In this document: piece after piece, positions 13,434 through 24,009 of the stretch
Numbering within the stretch: the first letter of the stretch is position 1
How the letters are laid out: every line of letters starts with the position of its first letter
Source of the DNA: Alphaproteobacteria bacterium
GTDB taxonomy: Bacteria; Pseudomonadota; Alphaproteobacteria; TMED109
Length of the DNA: 38,707 nucleotides
NCBI GenBank assembly: GCA_022819905.1
Contig: JAJEGJ010000064.1
Location: 1 to 38,707 of the forward strand
Reading direction: 5' to 3'
Translations under genes and position numbers: made by a program
The notes under the pieces: model-generated
Databases searched by the model: none
The model's input: the letters and a program-made list of their open reading frames with translations, nothing else
What the model was told of the DNA's origin: nothing

Positions 13434-14573
13434 CTACGCGGAGCGATCCTCGTCGAATGCGCGGGGACTGCTGCCGTGCGGGAACAGCCGCGTGACGTGC
13501 CCCATCTTTCGACCGGGCCGGCTGATCTTCTTGCCATAGAGATGCAGGCGGACGCTGCCGTCCCCCAGATAGCGGCTCCAGGCATCCACGTCGTTTCCGA
13601 TCATGTTCTCCATTACCGCATCGTGCAGCCGGTCCACGCTCCCCAGCGGGAGTCCGCAGCACACCCGGACCTGCTGCTCGAACTGACTGGTCTCCGCCGC
13701 ATCGATCGTCCAGTGTCCGGAGTTGTGCGGACGCGGGGCGATTTCGTTGACGACAACGCCGCCGTCCGCCAGCACGAACATCTCCACGGCGAGCACGCCG
13801 ACGCAGTCCAGTTCGCGGACCACCGTACGGGCCGCCGAAACCGCGGTGTCCGCCGTGGACTGGGAAATCTTCGCCGGCACGATAGACGTCCGAAGGATGC
13901 CACCGGCATGCCGGTTCTCAGCCGGCTCGTACGCTGCTTCCTCCCCGTCCTGCGAACGGGCGATGATCACCGACACCTCACACGCGAAGTCGATCCAGCG
14001 CTCCAGGACGACTGGTACGTGCCCCAGGCGTTCCCAGGCCGCCGATAGGTCGTGCGCTGACTTGACCCGCACTTGGCCTTTTCCGTCGTAGCCTTCCCGG
14101 CGGGTCTTGAGAACCGCCGGAAATCCAACCTCCGTCGCGAGCTGAAGTTCCTCAGGGGTCTCGATTCCCCGGTACGGTGCAACCGGTAAGTCTGCCTTCG
14201 AGAGGAAGTTCTTTTCGGCGAGTCGGTCTTGCGCGATTGCGAGCACGTTGGGGCCCGGACGGACCGCGACCCGTTCGGCAACGACCTTGGCTGCGGCGAG
14301 GGGGACGTTCTCAAACTCGTACGTGACGACCTGAACGGAGTTGGCAAAGCGCTCGAGGGCGGCCTGGTCAGAAAACGAGGCGACAGTGACGGCGGCCGCA
14401 ACCTCTCCCGCCGGTGTGTGCTGCTGGTCAGTGAATACGTGCGTGCGGTACCCCATGCGGGCGGCAGCCATGGCCATCATCCGGCCGAGCTGCCCGCCGC
14501 CCAAGAGGCCGAGGGTTGAACCCGGCGGCCAGTGGAGTTCCGGAACTGAGGAGAAGCGGAGTGGCCGATTCAC
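13434..14573 (-). CDS. purK: N5-carboxyaminoimidazole ribonucleotide synthase
   Basis: This ATP-grasp enzyme of purine synthesis carboxylates AIR to N5-CAIR using bicarbonate and ATP. At 379 residues it is normal length. It has [17 protein letters not shown] near residue 20, the ATP-grasp stretch [25 protein letters not shown], and [16 protein letters not shown], all diagnostic. Its ATG overlaps the purE stop (ATGA at 14570-14573). The order is ydcH, purE, purK, all leftward. It converges with the TIGR02302-type gene across about 50 bases that hold a small CCGGCC/GGCCGG repeat. Confidence 0.97.
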
Positions 14574-15070
14574 GCCCCGTCGTCCGGCTCGTGCGCCACG
14601 TTCTCGGTCTGAGTTTTCCGCCAGGCCCGAAGCTTTTCTTCCAGTTCCGCGTCGGTGCCGCTGAGGACGGCGACCGCAAGCAGGGCGGCGTTGATGGCAC
14701 CAGCCTTGCCGACGGCCAGTGTCCCGACCGGTATTCCCGCCGGCATCTGGACGATCGAGAGCAAGCTGTCGACACCGTCGCCGAAAGCCGTCGGAATGGG
14801 AACGGCAAACACCGGGACCGTCGTCATCGCCGCTGTCATGCCGGGCAAGTGCGCCGCCCCGCCGGCGCCGGCGATCACGACTGCGAGACCGCGGTCACGC
14901 GCCGTGCGGGCGTATTCATAGAGACGTTCCGGAGTGCGATGCGCGGAAATGATCCGCCGCTCGTGCGGAACGCCAAACTTCTCCAGCAGTTCTGCAGCGT
15001 GCTGCAGTATGGGCCAGTCGGACTGGCTGCCCATGATGACCCCGACCTTGGGAGGCTGCCCGCCAGCCAT
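14570..15070 (-). CDS. purE: N5-carboxyaminoimidazole ribonucleotide mutase
   Basis: Class I PurE, 166 residues, rearranges N5-CAIR to CAIR, the step after PurK. Visible motifs are [14 protein letters not shown] at residues 9-22, the [10 protein letters not shown] loop with the catalytic His, and [11 protein letters not shown]. The presence of PurK beside it agrees with the class I mutase route. AAGGA lies just before the ATG (GGAAGGACTATG). It is coupled to purK by a 4-base overlap and lies 77 bases after the DUF465 gene. Confidence 0.97.
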
Positions 15071-15147
15071 AGTCCTTCCCTTCTAACCACCGTCATCCGG
15101 GAGCGTCACGAGCGGACCCCCCGTGAAGCAGTCAACCGTCAACAGCC

Positions 15148-15345
15148 TCAGGCGATGATGTCTGGAGGCGTACGTTCGAAGGCCGCAATCCGATCCATAA
15201 CATTGCGTTTTTCTTCCCGCAATCGCCGTATCTTGGCGAAATCGCTGATCGCGCCCCTCGATTGTTCCGTAATCAGGCGATCGAGTTCTTCGGATCGCTC
15301 GCGCAGCGCAGCCAACTCGTCTGCATGATCTGTACTGCTGCTCAT
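15148..15345 (-). CDS. DUF465 / YdcH-family small coiled-coil protein
   Basis: This protein has 65 residues, nearly all helical and charged. The core ISDFAKIRRLREEKRNVMDRIAAFE is the conserved second half of DUF465 proteins, which form short helical hairpins. GGGAG lies 9 bases before ATG 15345, which sets the start. Function is unknown in the family. Placement directly before purE-purK is a common arrangement in alphaproteobacteria, so it is probably cotranscribed with them. It is divergent from pyrD. Confidence 0.85.
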   Translation of the reverse strand: MSSSTDHADELAALRERSEELDRLITEQSRGAISDFAKIRRLREEKRNVMDRIAAFERTPPDIIA

Positions 15346-15504
15346 ACGCTTCGTCTCCCTTTGCAGGGCTCGGCAAATTGTATACCAGAGCGTCGGGCTC
15401 CGGTTTGCGATCCCGCCGTGAATCCATGCTATGCAGGGAAACGTGCCGGGCCCGGGGGCGGTTGAACAGCCGATGGCAGTAATTCGCGGCGGGACAGTGG
15501 AATC

Positions 15505-16596
15505 GTGACGTACATCGAATCGCTGGCTGCACCGTTCCTGCGAACGCTCGGACCTGAAGCCGCGCACCACTTGGCGCTTCGGGCACTGGAAGCCGGGATG
15601 GTCAGCCCTTCCGGCATGGAGCCGGACGCCGTGCTGGCCAACGAGGTTGCTGGAATTCCCTTCCCGTCACCCCTCGGACTGGCCGCCGGCTTCGACAAGG
15701 ACGCACGGGCAGTTCCGGCGCTGGGACGGATCGGGTTCGGACACGTCGAAGTCGGTACCGTCACGCCGAAGCCCCAGCCCGGCAATCCGCGCCCGAGGAT
15801 CTTTCGGTTGCGGGCACAGGAAGCGATGATTAATCGGCTCGGATTCCCTAGCGAGGGGTTGGATGCGATCGCCGCGCGCCTCGCCAGGCGCCCCGAGGAC
15901 CTGATTGTTGGGGCCAACGTCGGCTGCAACCGGGTAACCGCAGATCCGATCGCCGACATTGTCGAAGGCATCAATCGATTGGGGGGATTGATCGACTACT
16001 GCTGCGTCAACGTGTCATCGCCCAACACTCCCGGGCTGCGCGACCTCCAGACAGGATCAGCTCTGGACCAGCTGCTCCGGCGAATCCGCCAGGCCAGAGA
16101 TGATGTTGTTGGGAAGACCGGCTGCCCGCTCCCGTTGTTCCTGAAGATCGCGCCGGATCTGACCGCGCCACAGGTACGCGATCTGGCCGACCGGCTCGTC
16201 CGCCAGCCGGTCGACGCGCTGGCGGTGTCCAATACCACCGTCGCGCGGCCGGCGACGCTGACGGGTCGGCACCGGGCGGAGACTGGCGGCCTCAGCGGGC
16301 CGCCGCTGTTCGAACCCTCGACGCGACTTCTGGCGACACTGCACCAGTCGCTACCCCGATCCATCAGTCTCGTGGGCGTCGGGGGGATTGCCAGCGCCGC
16401 CGACGCCTGGCGGAAGATCGAGGCCGGGGCAAGTCTGGTCCAGCTCTATACGGCCTTCGTTTACCAGGGAACCGAACTGATCAATCGCATCCACAGAGGA
16501 TTGGCCGAGTTCGTCAGGGAGTCCGGTTCGCGATCATTGGCCGCAGCCGTCGGCACCCGCTCGGAAGAGATCAGCGAGACCCAAGCGAATGCCTGA
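15505..16596 (+). CDS. pyrD: Dihydroorotate dehydrogenase (quinone), class 2
   Basis: A membrane-associated FMN enzyme of pyrimidine synthesis that oxidises dihydroorotate and passes electrons to ubiquinone. At 363 residues it has the extra N-terminal helices of class 2 (YIESLAAPFLRTLGPEAAHHLALRA, split by the membrane-contact region). FMN and substrate motifs follow: GLAAGFDKD, INRLGFPSEG, VNVSSPNTPGLRDLQ with the catalytic Ser, LKIAPDLT, SNTT, VGVGGIASA and LYTAFVYQG. The start is GTG 15505. The last 8 bases overlap the next gene. Confidence 0.96.
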   Translation: MTYIESLAAPFLRTLGPEAAHHLALRALEAGMVSPSGMEPDAVLANEVAGIPFPSPLGLAAGFDKDARAVPALGRIGFGHVEVGTVTPKPQPGNPRPRIFRLRAQEAMINRLGFPSEGLDAIAARLARRPEDLIVGANVGCNRVTADPIADIVEGINRLGGLIDYCCVNVSSPNTPGLRDLQTGSALDQLLRRIRQARDDVVGKTGCPLPLFLKIAPDLTAPQVRDLADRLVRQPVDALAVSNTTVARPATLTGRHRAETGGLSGPPLFEPSTRLLATLHQSLPRSISLVGVGGIASAADAWRKIEAGASLVQLYTAFVYQGTELINRIHRGLAEFVRESGSRSLAAAVGTRSEEISETQANA

Positions 16597-17491
16597 CACG
16601 CCACCGCCGCCGGTCTACGACTCGCTGGCAGCCCCGGAACTCGCGACGAAGGCGTACGTGCTCGATGTATGGGGAGTACTCTGGGACGGTATCCAGGCCT
16701 ATCCCGACGCGGCAGCCTGTCTGCTCGAACTTCGGCGGCAAGACAAGCGGGTTCTCCTGCTCTCTAATGCGCCGCGCCCAAGCCACAGCGTGGTTCACGG
16801 TCTGGCCGGGATCGGCATCGCGGACCATCTCTTTGATGGCATCCTGACTTCCGGTGATCTGTGCAGGGAGGCCTGCGCCAACGGCGGCGACGAGTTCGGC
16901 ACCGCGTATCACTACCTCGGGCTCGAAAAGGATCGAGCCTTGCTCGAAGGCCTGCCGTTTCGGGAAGCCGCGGAGCTTACTGCCGCGGACTTCATCCTGA
17001 ACCTCGGTACCCGGCAGCTTGGTGAGTCGGCAGAGGCGTATCGCGCCGAGTTGTCACTGGCACGCGATCGGGATCTGCCCATGCTCTGTGCCAATCCGGA
17101 CCGGATCATCGTGCGTTCAGATGGAAGCTCCGTCGACTGTGCGGGCGCGCTGGCGGACCTGTACGCGGCGCTCGGGGGCTCGGTACGATCATTCGGGAAG
17201 CCTCTGCGTCCCACGTATGACGCGTGTCTTGAGCGCCTGCGGGGTTGGTTGCCTGATCTGGTCCCAGGCGCCGTGCTGGCGGTCGGCGATTCCCTCACGA
17301 CGGACATCCGCGGAGCCCAGGCCGCTGGGTTTCGCACCGCTCTGGTGGCCGGGGGAATCCACGGACAGGAACTCGGTTTGCGACGACATGGCGACCGTCC
17401 CGACCCGCAACGGATTGCCGCACTGACCGATCGGATCGGGGTCCGTCCGGACGCCGTCCTGTCGACATTCCAGTGGAGTGCAACACGATAG
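16589..17491 (+). CDS. TIGR01459-type HAD superfamily (subfamily IIA) hydrolase
   Basis: A 300-residue NagD-like HAD protein. Motif I reads LDVWGVLWDG (Asp26, Trp28). Motif II is LLLSNAPR, and the closing motif is AVGDSLTTDIRGA near residue 230. The usual DxD general acid is replaced by Trp. I recall DxW as typical of this alphaproteobacterial family, so activity or mechanism may differ from NagD. The substrate is unknown. It overlaps pyrD by 8 bases (ATGCCTGA), so the two are cotranscribed. A role in nucleotide or phosphate clean-up is only suggested by context. Confidence 0.85.
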   Translation: MPDTPPPPVYDSLAAPELATKAYVLDVWGVLWDGIQAYPDAAACLLELRRQDKRVLLLSNAPRPSHSVVHGLAGIGIADHLFDGILTSGDLCREACANGGDEFGTAYHYLGLEKDRALLEGLPFREAAELTAADFILNLGTRQLGESAEAYRAELSLARDRDLPMLCANPDRIIVRSDGSSVDCAGALADLYAALGGSVRSFGKPLRPTYDACLERLRGWLPDLVPGAVLAVGDSLTTDIRGAQAAGFRTALVAGGIHGQELGLRRHGDRPDPQRIAALTDRIGVRPDAVLSTFQWSATR

Positions 17492-17713: not shown

Positions 17714-19480
17714 ATGGCGACCGATACTTGCGAACTTCAATCCCGCGTCCGCTACGAACCGGATGACCGGCCACCCGCGTTGCTGGCGGCGGGTCTGGGG
17801 CTGCAACTCACCATCCTGACCATTTCCGGGATCGTCATCACGCCGCTGATCGTGATCCAAGCTGCCGGCGGCTCCGACACGTACATGATGTGGGCGGTCT
17901 TCGGGTCGGTGGTGGTCAGTGGAATCAGCACGATTCTCCAGGCTGTCAGGGTCGGTCGCATCGGCGCCGGTTACGTGCTCTTGATGGGGACCTCCGGCGC
18001 CTTCATCGCCATCTGCATTACCGCCATCGCGGAGGGCGGGCCGGCGATGCTGGCGACGCTGGTCATCATCTCCTCACTCTTCCAGTTCGTACTGGCAAGG
18101 CGGTTGTCACTGTTCCGCCGGGTGCTGACTCCGACCGTCGCGGGCACCGTCATCATGCTGATTCCGGTGACCGTGATGCCAATCATCTTCGACCTGCTCG
18201 GGCGGGTTCCGGACGGGACGCCAGCCGAGGCGGCGCCGTTAAGTGCGCTTGTCACGCTGCTCATCATCGTCGGGATCGCCGTCAAGGCGACCGGCGTGCT
18301 CCGACTGTGGGCGCCTGTCATCGGTGTCATCGCCGGGTCGCTGGTTGGCGGGTACTTCGGGATCTACGATACGGCCAGGATTTCCGATGCACCGTGGATC
18401 GGTTTTCCGGACGCAAGCGCCTGGCCCGGCTTTGATTTGAGTTTCGGTGCGACATTTTGGACATTGCTGCCGGGTTTCGTCTTCGTGACGCTGATCGGCG
18501 CCATCGAAACCGTGGGCGATTCCGTGGCGATCCAGCGGGTTTCGTGGCGCCGCCCTCGGGCAGTCAACTTCCGTTCGGTCCAGGGGGCCGTCACGGCAGA
18601 CGGTGTGGGGAACCTCCTGTCGGGCTGCATCGGGACGGTTCCGAACACCACGTACTCCTCGAGCGTCTCGGTCACCGAATTGACGGGCGTCGGCGCGCGT
18701 ACGGTGGGCATCGCCGCGGGAACGATTTTCCTCGCGCTTGCGTGTTTCCCAAAGTTGCTGTCGCTGATCCTTGCGATCCCGAGTCCCGTCGCCGGGGCGT
18801 ACGTCAGCGTCCTGCTTGCCATTCTCTTCGTGGTGGGCATGAAGGTCCTGATTCAGGAAGGAATCGACTACCGGAACGGCATGATTGCCGGCGTGTCGTT
18901 CTGGGTCGGGGCCGGCTTCCAGAACGGCGTGATCTTTCCCGAAGTCTTCGCGGAGTTTGCGGGCGGCCTGCTGCAAAACGGCATGACGGCCGGAGGGCTG
19001 ACGGCACTGCTGCTGACCCTGTTCGTCGAACTCGCCGAACCCCGCCGCTGGCGCATCGAGGTGCCCTTCCAGGTTTCCGTTCTGCCCAAGGTCAGGGAAT
19101 TTCTTCAGGCGTTTGCAACGCGGAGCGGCTGGGGGGAGACGATGATGAACCGTCTTGACAGCGCGAGCGAGGAGACCTTGCTGACCCTGCTCCGGCAATA
19201 CGGCGACGAAGACCGCGGGGGCGACGCTGCGCGTCGCTTGCTGCTGGTCGCGCACAAGGAAAGCGACGAAGCGGTTCTGGAATTCATCGCGTCAACCGGT
19301 GAGGCGAATCTCCAGGACCAGATCGCACTGCTCAGTGAACGCGCCACCGAAGCCCCAGTCGAGCACGAAGTTTCCCTCAGGCTCTTGCGGCACGTGGCCT
19401 CATCGGTTCACCATCAGCAGTACCATGACACCGACATCGTGACCGTGCGGGTCAAGGTCCCCAGCGAGTTAGAACCCTAG
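17714..19480 (+). CDS. NCS2-family nucleobase permease with C-terminal GHKL-like domain
   Basis: This 588-residue protein has residues 1-450 as a multi-helix transporter of the uracil/xanthine (SLC23, NCS2) type. The family block runs QGAVTADGVGNLLSG, then PNTTYSSSVSVTELTGVGAR, with GAIETVGDSVAIQ before it. After the last helix, about 130 residues form a soluble domain not found in UraA or PbuX. It reads like an anti-sigma/GHKL fold: REFLQAFATRSGW, SASEETLLTLL at the N-box position, and LRLLRHVASSVHH near the end. The usual N-box Asn is absent, so ATP binding is doubtful. The substrate is unproven. Palindromes lie upstream. It is convergent with the RND gene. Confidence 0.8.
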   Translation: MATDTCELQSRVRYEPDDRPPALLAAGLGLQLTILTISGIVITPLIVIQAAGGSDTYMMWAVFGSVVVSGISTILQAVRVGRIGAGYVLLMGTSGAFIAICITAIAEGGPAMLATLVIISSLFQFVLARRLSLFRRVLTPTVAGTVIMLIPVTVMPIIFDLLGRVPDGTPAEAAPLSALVTLLIIVGIAVKATGVLRLWAPVIGVIAGSLVGGYFGIYDTARISDAPWIGFPDASAWPGFDLSFGATFWTLLPGFVFVTLIGAIETVGDSVAIQRVSWRRPRAVNFRSVQGAVTADGVGNLLSGCIGTVPNTTYSSSVSVTELTGVGARTVGIAAGTIFLALACFPKLLSLILAIPSPVAGAYVSVLLAILFVVGMKVLIQEGIDYRNGMIAGVSFWVGAGFQNGVIFPEVFAEFAGGLLQNGMTAGGLTALLLTLFVELAEPRRWRIEVPFQVSVLPKVREFLQAFATRSGWGETMMNRLDSASEETLLTLLRQYGDEDRGGDAARRLLLVAHKESDEAVLEFIASTGEANLQDQIALLSERATEAPVEHEVSLRLLRHVASSVHHQQYHDTDIVTVRVKVPSELEP

Positions 19481-19542: not shown

Positions 19543-22500
19543 TCAATGGGTGCGGCCATCGATCAGCATGACCAGCGTCGGGAGAACGAACAGGATGAAC
19601 AGCGCCGAGAGCACGAGCCCACCCAACATGCTCACCACGAACGGCACCAGGAAAATCAATTCGTCGCCCCGTTCGTAGAGCAGCGGCGACAGCCCGAGCA
19701 CGGTCGTCAGGCTCGTCAGGAACACGGCCCGGAATCGATGCCGGGCGGCCGCCGAAGCGGCCGCAATGGCTGGCAGCATCCGGTTCTCTCGACGCAGCAG
19801 GTTGTATCGATCCATGAGCACCAACGCGTCATTCACGACAACTCCTGACACGCCGATCATTCCGAAGATGGATATTGCCGTCAGATCCCAGCCCAGAATC
19901 CAGTGACCGAATACCGCGCCCGCAAACGAGAGAAGTATCCCGACCACAGCGACCAGGGGCTTCCAGTAGCTGCGCAGGAACGCGGCCATGAAAGCGTACA
20001 TCGCGATCAACACGATGGGAACCAGGACCCCCAGCGTCGTCAGCATCGTTCTTTCGTCTCGGGCGCCGCCTTCGGTTTCGACCTTCAAACCGGGGTATTT
20101 TGCCAGCAAGTCCGGCACGAACTCGGTGTTGACGTGTCGTCGTGCCTGAATCGGCGTGATGACTGAAGGATCGGCTTGCGCGTTCACGACTGCCGCCTGC
20201 TGACCATCGATCCGCTTTAGCGTGCCCAGTTCGCGCGTCTCGGTAAGTCGCGTGACCATCGACAGAGGCATCTCGTCGTTGGTGACCCTGTCATTCAGGC
20301 CTGCCCGCAGGCCGGGGCCAACCTGGAAGATCCGCTCACGAGCCAGCTCACCCAGGCTCGTTCGGCGCTCCGGCGGATACCTCACCATGACCTTCAGTTC
20401 TTCGTGGCCACGCTGAAGGCGCTGGACTTCGATGCCGTGAAAGTTGGCACGCAGCTGTGCCCCGACCAACGCAGCGCTCATCCCTGCTGCCTCCGCGGCC
20501 GGTGTCAGCTCGACCTCGACGTGCCGCTTGCCAACAGACAGGCTGTCGGACACGCCATAGATGCCGGGAATGGTCGCCAGGTATTCCCGCAACTCCGCGA
20601 CCACTTCCTTCAGCGTTTTCAGGTCTTCGTGCTTGAATGCGTAGGCGACACCCGGCTTGGTGCGCACCCTGGTGGTTTCGTAATCAACCGATTCCAGATA
20701 GGACGTGTCCCCGACGTTGTGGCGCCACAGCTGCGCGATCTCCCAGGGGGAAGCCATGCGAATCGGCCGATCGTTGAGATGCAGCCGTACCGACGCGACG
20801 TGACTGCGCGGACGGTCCTCCTTGCCGGCCCTGGACGAGGCCACGTTGCCGACCATCATGCTGACGGCATTGATGGAATCACTGCCCAGCTCGTCGTTGA
20901 TGCTCTCGGCCGCGCTCACGAACCGCTCAGCGACCGCCAGCGTGCTCTCAAAGGGCGCACCCATCGGAAGCTTGAGATCGGCCTGCACGCTGTTCGTCAC
21001 GTTTGCCCGGCTGTCATACATCACGACCCGAACGATTTCTGAACGGACCAGTAAGACCGCAGCGACAATGACCACCAGCCCGCCTGTCAGGGTCAACCCA
21101 ATATTCGTGACGGACCAAGACACGGCTGGAACCACCACACTCTCGCGAAGATTCTCCAGCCAGCCCCGCACAAATTCCTGCAGGTCCTTGAGCGGGGACA
21201 GACTCCAGGGCCGTTCTTGCGCGAGGTGCGCCGGCAGGATCAGGAACGCTTCCGCCAGCGAAACCAGCAAAACAAAGAGTGCGACGTACGGGAATACCTT
21301 CAGAATTTGAAAGTCGCCGGACGTGATGAATGCAAACGGCACCAGTGCCAGCAACGTGGTCACGACACCGACCAGAATCGGGCCGAAAACAGCTTTCGCG
21401 CCGCTGATGGCGGCATCCAATGCGCTCTTGCCGGTCTCCCGCTCAGCGGCAATGCTTTCTCCCACCACAACTGCATCGTCAACAACAATGCCTATGAGCA
21501 GGAAGAACGCGAAGACGGTCCCCATATTCAGCGTGAGGCCTGCCGGACCAAAGAAGATCAGTGATCCGATGAATGACAGCGGTATACCGACGGCAATCCA
21601 CGATGCCACCCGCAGGTCAAACACAAGCACCAAACAGATGAACACCAGTAGCGCGCCAATCACCCCGTTCCGGATGATCTCCGTCAGCCGGTCCAATGCA
21701 GGTTTCGCGCTGTCGCTCCATACATCGATGACGACGTCCTCCGGTGTCTGATAGCTGCCCAGCCACTCCCGGACGTCCTCTGACATCTCGACAATTGACT
21801 GCTCCTCGGCAGCATCGACGCGAACAAGCACGGCTGGCCAGCCATTGAATCGGGTAACCGTCTGGTCGTCGACGAAACCATCGCGAACTTCTGCAACGTC
21901 ACCAAGCCGCAGGATCGTGCCGTCCAGCCGGGTCAGCAGCGGAATATCCTTGAAGTCCTCGCCAACCCTCCGTTTGGCGATGGTGTGCAGGATCACCCCG
22001 CCGGCTTCGGTGCGGAGTTCGCCAAACGTCACGTTGACCGATTCCCGTTGTACAGCGTTGGCAATTCTGCGAATCGTGAGACGGTTCCGGCGCAAGGCCT
22101 CCTCGTGAACCTCGATGGAGATCTCACGGTCCCGGGTTCCTCGAAGCTCCACCTGCGACACGGTCGGCAATTGCAGCAACTCGCCACGGACGCTTTCCGC
22201 TGCAACTCTTAGCTCGTCCTCGGTCAAGCGAGATGACGAGACCGCAAGCGTCACGACTTCCAGCGCGACTTCCTGCAGCCTCACTTCCGGCTGCTCCGCG
22301 TTGGCCGGCGGGAAGCGCTCGATACTGTCCACGGCGTTCTGGATATCCAGCAGCACGGAAGCGGAACGTGCAAACGGCGCAATCTCGATGTCGACGCGCC
22401 CAAGACCGTGGGTAGCCGTCGTGATGACCCGCTCTACCCCCGACAACCCAAGGATGTTCTCTTCTATTCGCCGGTTGATGTCCTCTTCCACTTCCTGCGG

Positions 22501-22716
22501 AGAAGATCCGGGTGCCGGTACGGTTACGGTGACCATCCGCAGATCCATCTGCGGGAAACGCTGAATCGGAATCTGGGATCCCGAGATGATCCCGCCGACG
22601 ATGAACAGCACCATCAGCAGATTGGCGGCAACCGGGTTACGGGCGAAATAGGCGATCAGTCCCGCTCTCGATGTCGCGCCGGGCTGGGCCGTCGTTGGGA
22701 GATCGGTTGTACTCAT
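19543..22716 (-). CDS. RND-family efflux transporter permease subunit
   Basis: This 1057-residue inner-membrane proton antiporter follows the HAE1/AcrB plan: helix 1 (LLMVLFIVGGII), a large periplasmic loop, helices 2-7, a second loop and helices 8-12. The paired proton-relay aspartates are in GIVVDDAVVVGES on helix 4. It is the pump of a tripartite system. The adaptor gene lies just upstream with a 12-base gap. No outer-membrane TolC-like gene is in the window. Its PVAANLLMV start and MDLRMVTVTVPAPGSSP segment resemble the environmental AcrB/MdtB-like branch. The cargo cannot be told. Confidence 0.95.
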   Translation of the reverse strand: MSTTDLPTTAQPGATSRAGLIAYFARNPVAANLLMVLFIVGGIISGSQIPIQRFPQMDLRMVTVTVPAPGSSPQEVEEDINRRIEENILGLSGVERVITTATHGLGRVDIEIAPFARSASVLLDIQNAVDSIERFPPANAEQPEVRLQEVALEVVTLAVSSSRLTEDELRVAAESVRGELLQLPTVSQVELRGTRDREISIEVHEEALRRNRLTIRRIANAVQRESVNVTFGELRTEAGGVILHTIAKRRVGEDFKDIPLLTRLDGTILRLGDVAEVRDGFVDDQTVTRFNGWPAVLVRVDAAEEQSIVEMSEDVREWLGSYQTPEDVVIDVWSDSAKPALDRLTEIIRNGVIGALLVFICLVLVFDLRVASWIAVGIPLSFIGSLIFFGPAGLTLNMGTVFAFFLLIGIVVDDAVVVGESIAAERETGKSALDAAISGAKAVFGPILVGVVTTLLALVPFAFITSGDFQILKVFPYVALFVLLVSLAEAFLILPAHLAQERPWSLSPLKDLQEFVRGWLENLRESVVVPAVSWSVTNIGLTLTGGLVVIVAAVLLVRSEIVRVVMYDSRANVTNSVQADLKLPMGAPFESTLAVAERFVSAAESINDELGSDSINAVSMMVGNVASSRAGKEDRPRSHVASVRLHLNDRPIRMASPWEIAQLWRHNVGDTSYLESVDYETTRVRTKPGVAYAFKHEDLKTLKEVVAELREYLATIPGIYGVSDSLSVGKRHVEVELTPAAEAAGMSAALVGAQLRANFHGIEVQRLQRGHEELKVMVRYPPERRTSLGELARERIFQVGPGLRAGLNDRVTNDEMPLSMVTRLTETRELGTLKRIDGQQAAVVNAQADPSVITPIQARRHVNTEFVPDLLAKYPGLKVETEGGARDERTMLTTLGVLVPIVLIAMYAFMAAFLRSYWKPLVAVVGILLSFAGAVFGHWILGWDLTAISIFGMIGVSGVVVNDALVLMDRYNLLRRENRMLPAIAAASAAARHRFRAVFLTSLTTVLGLSPLLYERGDELIFLVPFVVSMLGGLVLSALFILFVLPTLVMLIDGRTH

Positions 22717-22728
22717 GTTGAGGCTCCG

Positions 22729-23850
22729 CTAATCGGACGGCACCGCTTCCGCAATCGCGACCGCCAATCCTTCTCTTGCTTCCGGCAGAATGCCGAAAAC
22801 CACGCCCTCCCCGGCGTCGAACGCCTCCACGACCAACCCGTTCTCCACGCGGCCCAATGCCGTCGGCGTAAAGGATGTCAACTCGCCGTCCCGGACGACC
22901 CACACGCGGTTCTGCTCCTGAATGGCGGCCTCCGGCAGCGTGTAGACATTCTCATAGGCGGGACCTTCGATCTCGCCCTCACCAAACGAGCCTGGCAACG
23001 GCAACGAAGCCACCGTCTGATTGGAGGCAAACCTGAAAAACACGGTTGCCAGACGGCTGCTCGGAGCGACCATCGAGGACACGCGCGTCGCCTCCAACCG
23101 ATGGGTACCCACTTCTGTGCGAACTACCGCGGAACGCCCCTTGAGCGGGCTCAAATACCCGAGGCTCGAGACTTCCATCGGTGCCTCGAACTGCAACGCG
23201 TCGACCCGATACACGGTGCCGATCCTGCCCCCGGGGCCAACGTCACGATGCGGACCGACGACCTCGCCAACCTCCAATTCGGTACTGATCACTCGACTCT
23301 CGTACGGCAGGGAAATACTCGTTCGTTCAAGTTGGAGTCTTGCCAACTCAAGCCCCGTCTCCGCGCTGGCCAGTTGCGCTTCCGCAAGCGCTACCCGCAA
23401 TGCGTTTCCCCGGGCCTCCTCGATTTGCAGCCGGACCGCCGCTTCACTGACCGCGTTCGCAGCCGCCTTGACCTGAAGCTCGTACTCGGTCGGATCAATC
23501 TGAACAAACTGCTCGTTCGCCGGAATCACTCCGCCGTTATTGAAGTTTGGTGAAATCCAGCTAACTCGTCCGGTGACTTCTGCAACAATGCCTGTCTGTT
23601 CTTCCAGTGTTACCGCCCCGGTCAGCTTTAACTTAATCGACTGGTCTACAATTTCGGGTTTGACTACCTGCACAACAGGTTTGGCTGCATCAAATGACAG
23701 ACCGGAAGATGTATCGATTTGAACATGACCAGGAGCCCTGGCGAAATACAGTGCTACGACAATCGCCGCCAGAATCAGCGCCGCCTGCACAAAGCCAGGC
23801 AACCGAAACCGCCCGGGCTGCACGGCTTGGCCATCATTAAGCTGTGCCAT
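22729..23850 (-). CDS. RND efflux periplasmic adaptor (HlyD/MFP family)
   Basis: About 373 residues from ATG 23850. A start 20 codons upstream is possible, but GGAAA before MAQLNDG supports this one. A single N-terminal helix (VQAALILAAIVVALYFA) anchors it. The barrel-sandwich half follows (VTLEEQTGIVAEVTGRVSWI). Next is a helical hairpin rich in Ala and Glu, then the second half and beta-barrel (LPYESRVISTELEVGEVV). It links the RND pump to an outer-membrane channel. It is first in a two-gene operon with the permease. The upstream spacer is long and AT-rich, so regulation may lie there. Confidence 0.92.
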   Translation of the reverse strand: MAQLNDGQAVQPGRFRLPGFVQAALILAAIVVALYFARAPGHVQIDTSSGLSFDAAKPVVQVVKPEIVDQSIKLKLTGAVTLEEQTGIVAEVTGRVSWISPNFNNGGVIPANEQFVQIDPTEYELQVKAAANAVSEAAVRLQIEEARGNALRVALAEAQLASAETGLELARLQLERTSISLPYESRVISTELEVGEVVGPHRDVGPGGRIGTVYRVDALQFEAPMEVSSLGYLSPLKGRSAVVRTEVGTHRLEATRVSSMVAPSSRLATVFFRFASNQTVASLPLPGSFGEGEIEGPAYENVYTLPEAAIQEQNRVWVVRDGELTSFTPTALGRVENGLVVEAFDAGEGVVFGILPEAREGLAVAIAEAVPSD

Positions 23851-24009
23851 CTTGATTTCCGATTGCTGATACGAGTTCCCCGGTGCGCGGGGCGGAAACC
23901 TAGAGGCCACGAATCAAGGAACCACGCCGTACTGCATTTGCTCCAGGAGTTGCCGAGCCTCTATTCATCCTCCCAATGGTGCCGGTAATCCGCAAAATAC
24001 ACCTCGTAA

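Follow-up and report, generated by a model that had tools for sequence, protein, structure and literature searches.

In the anti-sigma switch, RsbW-type proteins are partnered by STAS proteins, which they sense through ATP-dependent phosphorylation. RsbW-type domains are dimers, and in the Bergerat fold the normal ligand is an adenine nucleotide. The STAS half of this switch is also found in transporters of the SLC26 family, where it lies directly after TM14 and affects TM13 and TM14, and where its removal impairs transport (PMC6497670). By contrast, the SLC4 and SLC23 families have been described as lacking carboxy-terminal domains (PMC6497670), and it is by this missing domain that SLC23/NCS2 has been distinguished from SLC26. 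In UapA and XanQ, the NAT signature positions that correspond to Q408 and N409 of UapA matter for substrate binding and kinetics (PMC5972032). In the open-licence papers searched, which give weak evidence of absence, no description of a permease/HATPase or NCS2/anti-sigma fusion was found; on NCS2 together with STAS there was one UraA paper.

The subfamily described here does have a C-terminal domain. It was found in a stretch of alphaproteobacterial DNA of 38,707 nucleotides, which is called the window below. NCS2 permeases and the RsbW fold are both known kinds; what appears to be new, judging from the sequences, is an NCS2 subfamily that pairs the two, with a pseudo-RsbW tail that is ancient and conserved in a whole branch.

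The permease domain and its substrate motif

The open reading frame at 17714–19480 (plus strand, as are all the features of the protein given below) encodes 588 amino acids, an NCS2-family permease with a C-terminal RsbW-like domain. Residues 28–402 match Xan_ur_permease (PF00860) in Pfam at 5.6e-49, with 167 bits against a cut-off of 27. In NCBIfam, TIGR03173 (pbuX) matches residues 28–438 at 2.1e-60 and an NCS2 model matches the same residues, each falling under its curated cut-off. From Pfam and the helices of an AlphaFold2 model, the membrane domain with its predicted 14-TM NCS2 fold was placed at residues 21–441 (17774–19036), and the full-length model, compared overall, has the helical layout expected for NCS2 through residue 441. 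The earlier note had described a frame of the nucleobase-permease family with a fused tail, and this description holds, since the family is NCS2 and the tail is genuine coding sequence. In the full-length model only a short linker separates the last membrane helix (residues 423–441) from the first strand of the tail (446–451). Directly after the membrane domain, between this helix and the tail, stands the sequence PRRWR, whose richness in arginine fits the cytoplasmic side. Both termini are cytoplasmic in UraA and UapA.

Alignment to UapA and column tallies showed that the TM8 glutamate is kept and the TM10 signature is changed. Glu265 in TM8 (18506–18508) is the counterpart of the UapA TM8 glutamate, and its column holds E in 79, D in 7 and R in 6 of 92 homologues. 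At the site of the NAT signature in TM10 lies TYSSSVSVTELTG (residues 313–325, 18650–18688), in which the canonical signature [Q/E/P]-N-x-G-x4-T-[R/K/G] was not found. Where UapA has Q-N-N-G the window protein has S316-S317-V318-S319, with Ser316 at the position of Q408 (T/S in most) and Ser317 at that of N409. Over the 92 homologues the signature columns read T/S, S, V/I and S/A, and the final T-G alone is kept. Because the NAT signature (Q/E-N-x-G) is missing, the substrate is uncertain, and on this sequence evidence "nucleobase permease" would be a family label only. Annotations as "xanthine/uracil permease" in genomes with tailed permeases may therefore name the wrong substrate.

The permease is preceded in the window (13437–17491) by purK on the minus strand, pyrD and a gene for a HAD hydrolase, and is followed by convergent minus-strand genes (19543–23910) for an AcrB-type RND efflux pump and an HlyD-type adaptor. 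In the window's genus pyrD and the permease are recurrently adjacent, which is a weak hint of a link between them. The pyrD of Dadabacteria is divergent (34% identity) and lies at least about 1.5 kb from the permease on the opposite strand, so that it was not co-transferred with the permease.

The fold of the C-terminal domain

Searched as a single sequence, the 143-residue tail gave no useful match in Pfam, NCBIfam or the PDB. Its best Pfam hit, WAC_Acf1_DNA_bd at E 0.02, was found in only 4 of 59 members and had no structural support, and a single Notch match that the tail profile gave in the PDB was put down to chance. No STAS match appeared at E up to 10, and the predicted fold differs from STAS. 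This want of a significant family match would suit another explanation: a STAS, GNAT or WAC domain, or a disordered extension, that resembles GHKL proteins by chance. Such an explanation is contradicted in silico by the structure and profile results given here and deserves next to no credence.

Modelled with AlphaFold2 from a 59-row alignment, the tail reached a pLDDT of 80.5 and a pTM of 0.77 with the element order b-a-a-b-b-a-a-b-b; residues 530–558 had a pLDDT below 50 in the full-length model. A Foldseek search of the PDB with the tail model placed M. tuberculosis UsfX and B. subtilis RsbW on top (E 3e-5). The VIA Z score was 13.9 against RsbW (6m37; rmsd 2.3 over 109 residues, 18% identity), 13.2 against UsfX and 11.9 against SpoIIAB, whereas sensor histidine kinases scored about 7, which places the tail specifically in the anti-sigma branch of the GHKL fold. 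A GHKL/RsbW-like fold had been proposed in the earlier note, together with structure prediction, a fold search and a comparison with HATPase_c profiles as means of checking it; the outcome was GHKL, and neither STAS nor an unrelated fold appeared.

The profile comparison gave the same answer. When the 59 tails were scanned singly, 33 matched HATPase_c_2 (PF13581), the best at 3.7e-7, and a distant tailed relative (L107) scored 32.4 bits against the curated cut-off of 27.4. The window tail itself gave no match to HATPase_c_2 in Pfam and so did not reach this cut-off. A reference alignment of intact RsbW was made from six HATPase_c_2-type proteins of the window's and other genomes, including L125, the RsbW-like kinase of the window's own genome. 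In hhalign the tail profile matched this alignment at 92.8% (E 4e-7, score 49) and a broader tail profile of 18 sequences at 97.1% (E 5e-11, score 73), while reversed profiles and 100 column shuffles each stayed at or below about 2%, with scores of at most 20. The tail is almost certainly a degenerate RsbW fold.

By the model and the structure and profile comparisons, the RsbW-like (HATPase_c_2 fold) cytoplasmic domain occupies residues 446–588 (19049–19480). It opens with strand b1 (446–451, 19049–19066), about seven residues before the start given in the earlier note, which had however described EETL (486–489, 19169–19180) and LRLLRHVASSV (555–565, 19376–19408) correctly. Helix a1 (454–470, 19073–19123) is followed by the N-box helix a2 (475–499, 19136–19210), which carries the invariant pair E486 E487 and has Thr491 at the site of the Mg-binding Asn. 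The b2-b3 hairpin (507–528, 19232–19297) has I525/A526 at the G1 Asp site and the invariant E523, and the lid helix (533–543, 19310–19342) begins right after the invariant N532. The equivalent of the G2 box is E552-V-S554-LRLLRHVASSV (19367–19408), with E and S at both glycines of GxG, and the domain is completed by b4-b5 (564–581, 19403–19456) with the conserved HQQYHDTDIVT.

Inheritance and distribution of the fusion

Among 84,980 species genomes scanned, at least 80 loci were found whose products are 59–97% identical to the window protein over nearly its entire length. The tail was present in all 92 full-length copies extracted, paralogues counted, so that the homologues keep both halves, a point which the earlier note had proposed to check. 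Moreover, a tail-profile search of 385 genomes of the window's class gave clear matches in frames of at least 573 amino acids, and those read out encode an NCS2 permease; the weaker matches were short frames, including one 91-residue fragment. In the genomes searched, the fusion to NCS2 is obligate save for this one fragment. Wider searches found the tail to be rare across the phylum at large, and their weak hits were, where read out, ordinary RsbW-type proteins.

A family survey brought up other long NCS2 proteins, whose tail is of a second, more divergent kind (FDE-hairpin type). This tail occurs in 14 of the 385 class genomes, every match lying behind an NCS2 domain, and none of the tails from the class-wide search has the full set of ATP motifs. 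Against intact RsbW the FDE-hairpin type gave 61.5% (E 8e-5, score 35, with shuffles at or below 18). Compared directly, the two kinds of tail match only weakly (E 0.02), and each matches intact RsbW better. One genome of the class encodes at least five tailed NCS2 paralogues of both branches. In the genome of the window there are three tailed paralogues, beside one NCS2 protein that leaves no space for a tail. In Latescibacterota and Gemmatimonadetes two tailed permease copies were found side by side.

In a tree built from the membrane domain only, 26 tailed and 16 tailless permeases were split by one branch (support 100/97), and the presence of the tail changed once in all bootstraps against a mean of 13 after shuffling; as the sample was one class and its MAG relatives in other phyla, a tailless protein inside the tailed clade may exist. 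Most likely, the RsbW-type domain was fused to NCS2 once and early. The tail is co-inherited with the changed substrate motif of TM10: in every tailed protein from which the motif was retrieved it reads NT(Y/F/V)S-x-S-(V/I) or nearly so, and in the tailless set SQN was retrieved in 9 of 16, the pattern having missed the rest.

The close permease family was found in MAGs labelled as about ten phyla. On the permease tree these phyla are intermingled, with Dadabacteria, about 78% identical, as the sister group of the window's proteins. One Dadabacteria copy is on a 1.59 Mb contig titled as a chromosome, and no full-length relative was found in plasmid records. Some record names, Spongia_Bin9 for one, suggest an origin in marine sponges, and most other bin names of the homologue MAGs presumably belong to sponge surveys. 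The mixing of phyla suggests horizontal transfer among co-resident symbionts, but it may also have arisen by paralogy or binning error.

Constraint on the tail, its possible roles and known systems

The alignment of 59 non-redundant tails (44–82% identical to the query) has 13 invariant columns and 22 further columns that are at least 90% conserved, the invariant residues including R480, E486, E487, E523, N532, L555, R556, H567 and Y570. For the window tail, dN/dS was 0.14 against a near relative of 88% identity and 0.12 against one of 85%, figures that rest on these two pairs because several others were not computable or near saturation; for the membrane part of the near-relative pairs it was 0.04, the tail evolving about three times faster. 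The tail is under purifying selection. Its faster evolution, together with the dimeric state of RsbW-type domains, could fit an appendage that only aids folding, dimerisation or membrane targeting and regulates nothing. Yet the invariant charged and polar residues stand on former active-site elements and exceed the needs of a dimer interface, which makes a purely structural role very doubtful.

The absence of the N-box Asn, remarked upon in the earlier note, was borne out in the wider family, as residue 491 is T in 80, S in 8 and N in none of the 92 homologues. At the G1 Asp site (residues 525–527) there is no D or E among the homologue residues listed, and the G2 glycine sites hold E552 in 84 and S554 in 90 of 92. 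When aligned with intact RsbW, all three of these elements are thus absent in all 92 homologues, whereas the RsbW of the window's own genome retains every ATP-site motif. The conserved set in their place comprises R480, E523, N532, L555-R556, H567, Y570 and the strand motif HQQYHDTDIVT. Such a pattern is that of a domain in which catalysis on nucleotides was lost and a different conserved contact acquired. The loss of the ATP motifs, the fixation of other residues and purifying selection together argue for a pseudo-kinase module and not for decay, and the tail very probably has neither ATP hydrolysis nor kinase activity. The N-box glutamate is kept as E487, four residues before Thr491, beside the invariant E486. 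A glutamate retained at the catalytic-base position would fit a modified nucleotide site, and this counts against the reading of the tail as a pseudo-kinase docking module.

A remodelled Bergerat pocket might bind a small molecule, such as a nucleobase, nucleotide or alarmone, and gate the transporter allosterically. Adenine nucleotides are the usual ligands of this fold, and the pocket-forming elements bear the new invariants (EE of the N-box helix, N532, E552/S554, R556, H560 and H567-QQYHDTD). However, no homologue retains the Asp that contacts adenine, and a protein contact would explain the conserved surface just as well. Moreover, the second branch of tails has not kept these residues, so that one common ligand is unlikely, and a sensing pocket as such is rather improbable.

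We lean slightly towards an explanation in which a pseudo-RsbW domain, fused early to NCS2, now acts as a docking module that controls transport. In an unusual NCS2 subfamily, an RsbW/SpoIIAB-type domain would have been added right behind TM14, facing the cytoplasm; selection would then have maintained this domain even as its ATP binding was lost. The tail would now be a non-catalytic module for protein-protein docking or dimerisation, in contact with its twin in the transporter dimer (assumed from the family) and/or with the moving core domain, and this contact would set transport activity, as STAS does in SLC26/SulP. In the 7+7 fold TM14 belongs to the gate domain. With the tail only about four residues from this helix, contact with the twin and/or the core domain would be most likely. 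That SLC23 dimers centre on TM5/TM12 and not on TM14 (PMC6497670) counts against a dimer or gate reading based on TM14. Whether intramolecular or dimer-level control is the main role of the tail seems to us evenly balanced.

The earlier note had suggested that such a tail might sense substrate flow or signal it. In an alternative of this kind, the tail could bind a free STAS protein (RsbV-like) or a sigma factor without phosphorylation, and substrate-driven states of the permease would release or capture this partner, so that flux is relayed to transcription as in a transceptor. The tail is of the anti-sigma and not the histidine kinase type (Z 12–14 against about 7), and the altered NAT signature might be compatible with action as a receptor. 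The window's genome also encodes STAS proteins, one beside the intact RsbW-like kinase L125 (contig C39) and one, L126, alone (C120); these loci, an ordinary partner-switch set, could supply candidate partners of the tail. Against this, the ATP-dependent phosphorylation site with which RsbW senses its partner is lost in the tail, and up to three tailed paralogues occur within one genome, that of the window. Furthermore, when the frames flanking 80 homologous loci were clustered (mechanical frames, some clusters being in the wrong frame), no neighbour family recurred widely; neighbourhoods are not conserved, and no STAS or sigma gene recurs beside the permease. Signalling of this kind is unlikely for the tail. 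Less likely again is the broader proposal that a large NCS2 subfamily, so far unrecognised, consists of transceptors, with a changed substrate site and a pseudo-RsbW tail that holds or releases STAS or sigma. If true, it would mean that a transporter swapped ATP-driven for transport-driven partner switching.

Several known systems can be set beside the tailed permease. The tail resembles RsbW, SpoIIAB and UsfX in fold, in the order of strands and helices, in length and in a collinear profile match over 121–124 columns, but it lacks the N-box Asn, the G1 Asp and the G2 glycines and has invariant residues of its own. RsbW kinases are free soluble proteins encoded beside a STAS or sigma gene, whereas the tail is fused to a transporter in every clear case and has no recurring neighbour of this kind. 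The tail offers a pseudo-kinase RsbW whose conserved surface is open to mutation testing. SiaB of Pseudomonas aeruginosa and related HATPase_c_2-fold switch proteins have a related fold (Z 10.3), but SiaB is soluble and separate, and its solved structure is that of a complex with SiaC (6kko). With the NCS2/NAT proteins UraA, UapA, XanQ and PbuX (SLC23) the window protein shares the PF00860 membrane domain, the TM8 glutamate and probably the 14-TM fold; the tailed subfamily differs in its added C-terminal domain and in having S/T-S-V-S/A instead of Q/E-N-x-G. The tail and the lost NAT signature together define a testable subfamily for studying the role of such domains in elevator transporters.

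The closest architectural parallel is with SLC26/SulP, which has the same 7+7 class of membrane fold and likewise has one member of the anti-sigma partner-switch pair as a cytoplasmic domain right behind TM14. The two differ in that STAS is the anti-anti-sigma half and the tail is of the RsbW-type anti-sigma half, and their membrane domains belong to different families; the parallel is an analogy of architecture and not homology of the tails. Since STAS and RsbW act as partners in that switch, each of its halves would have been recruited, at the same place, by one of two related transporter families.
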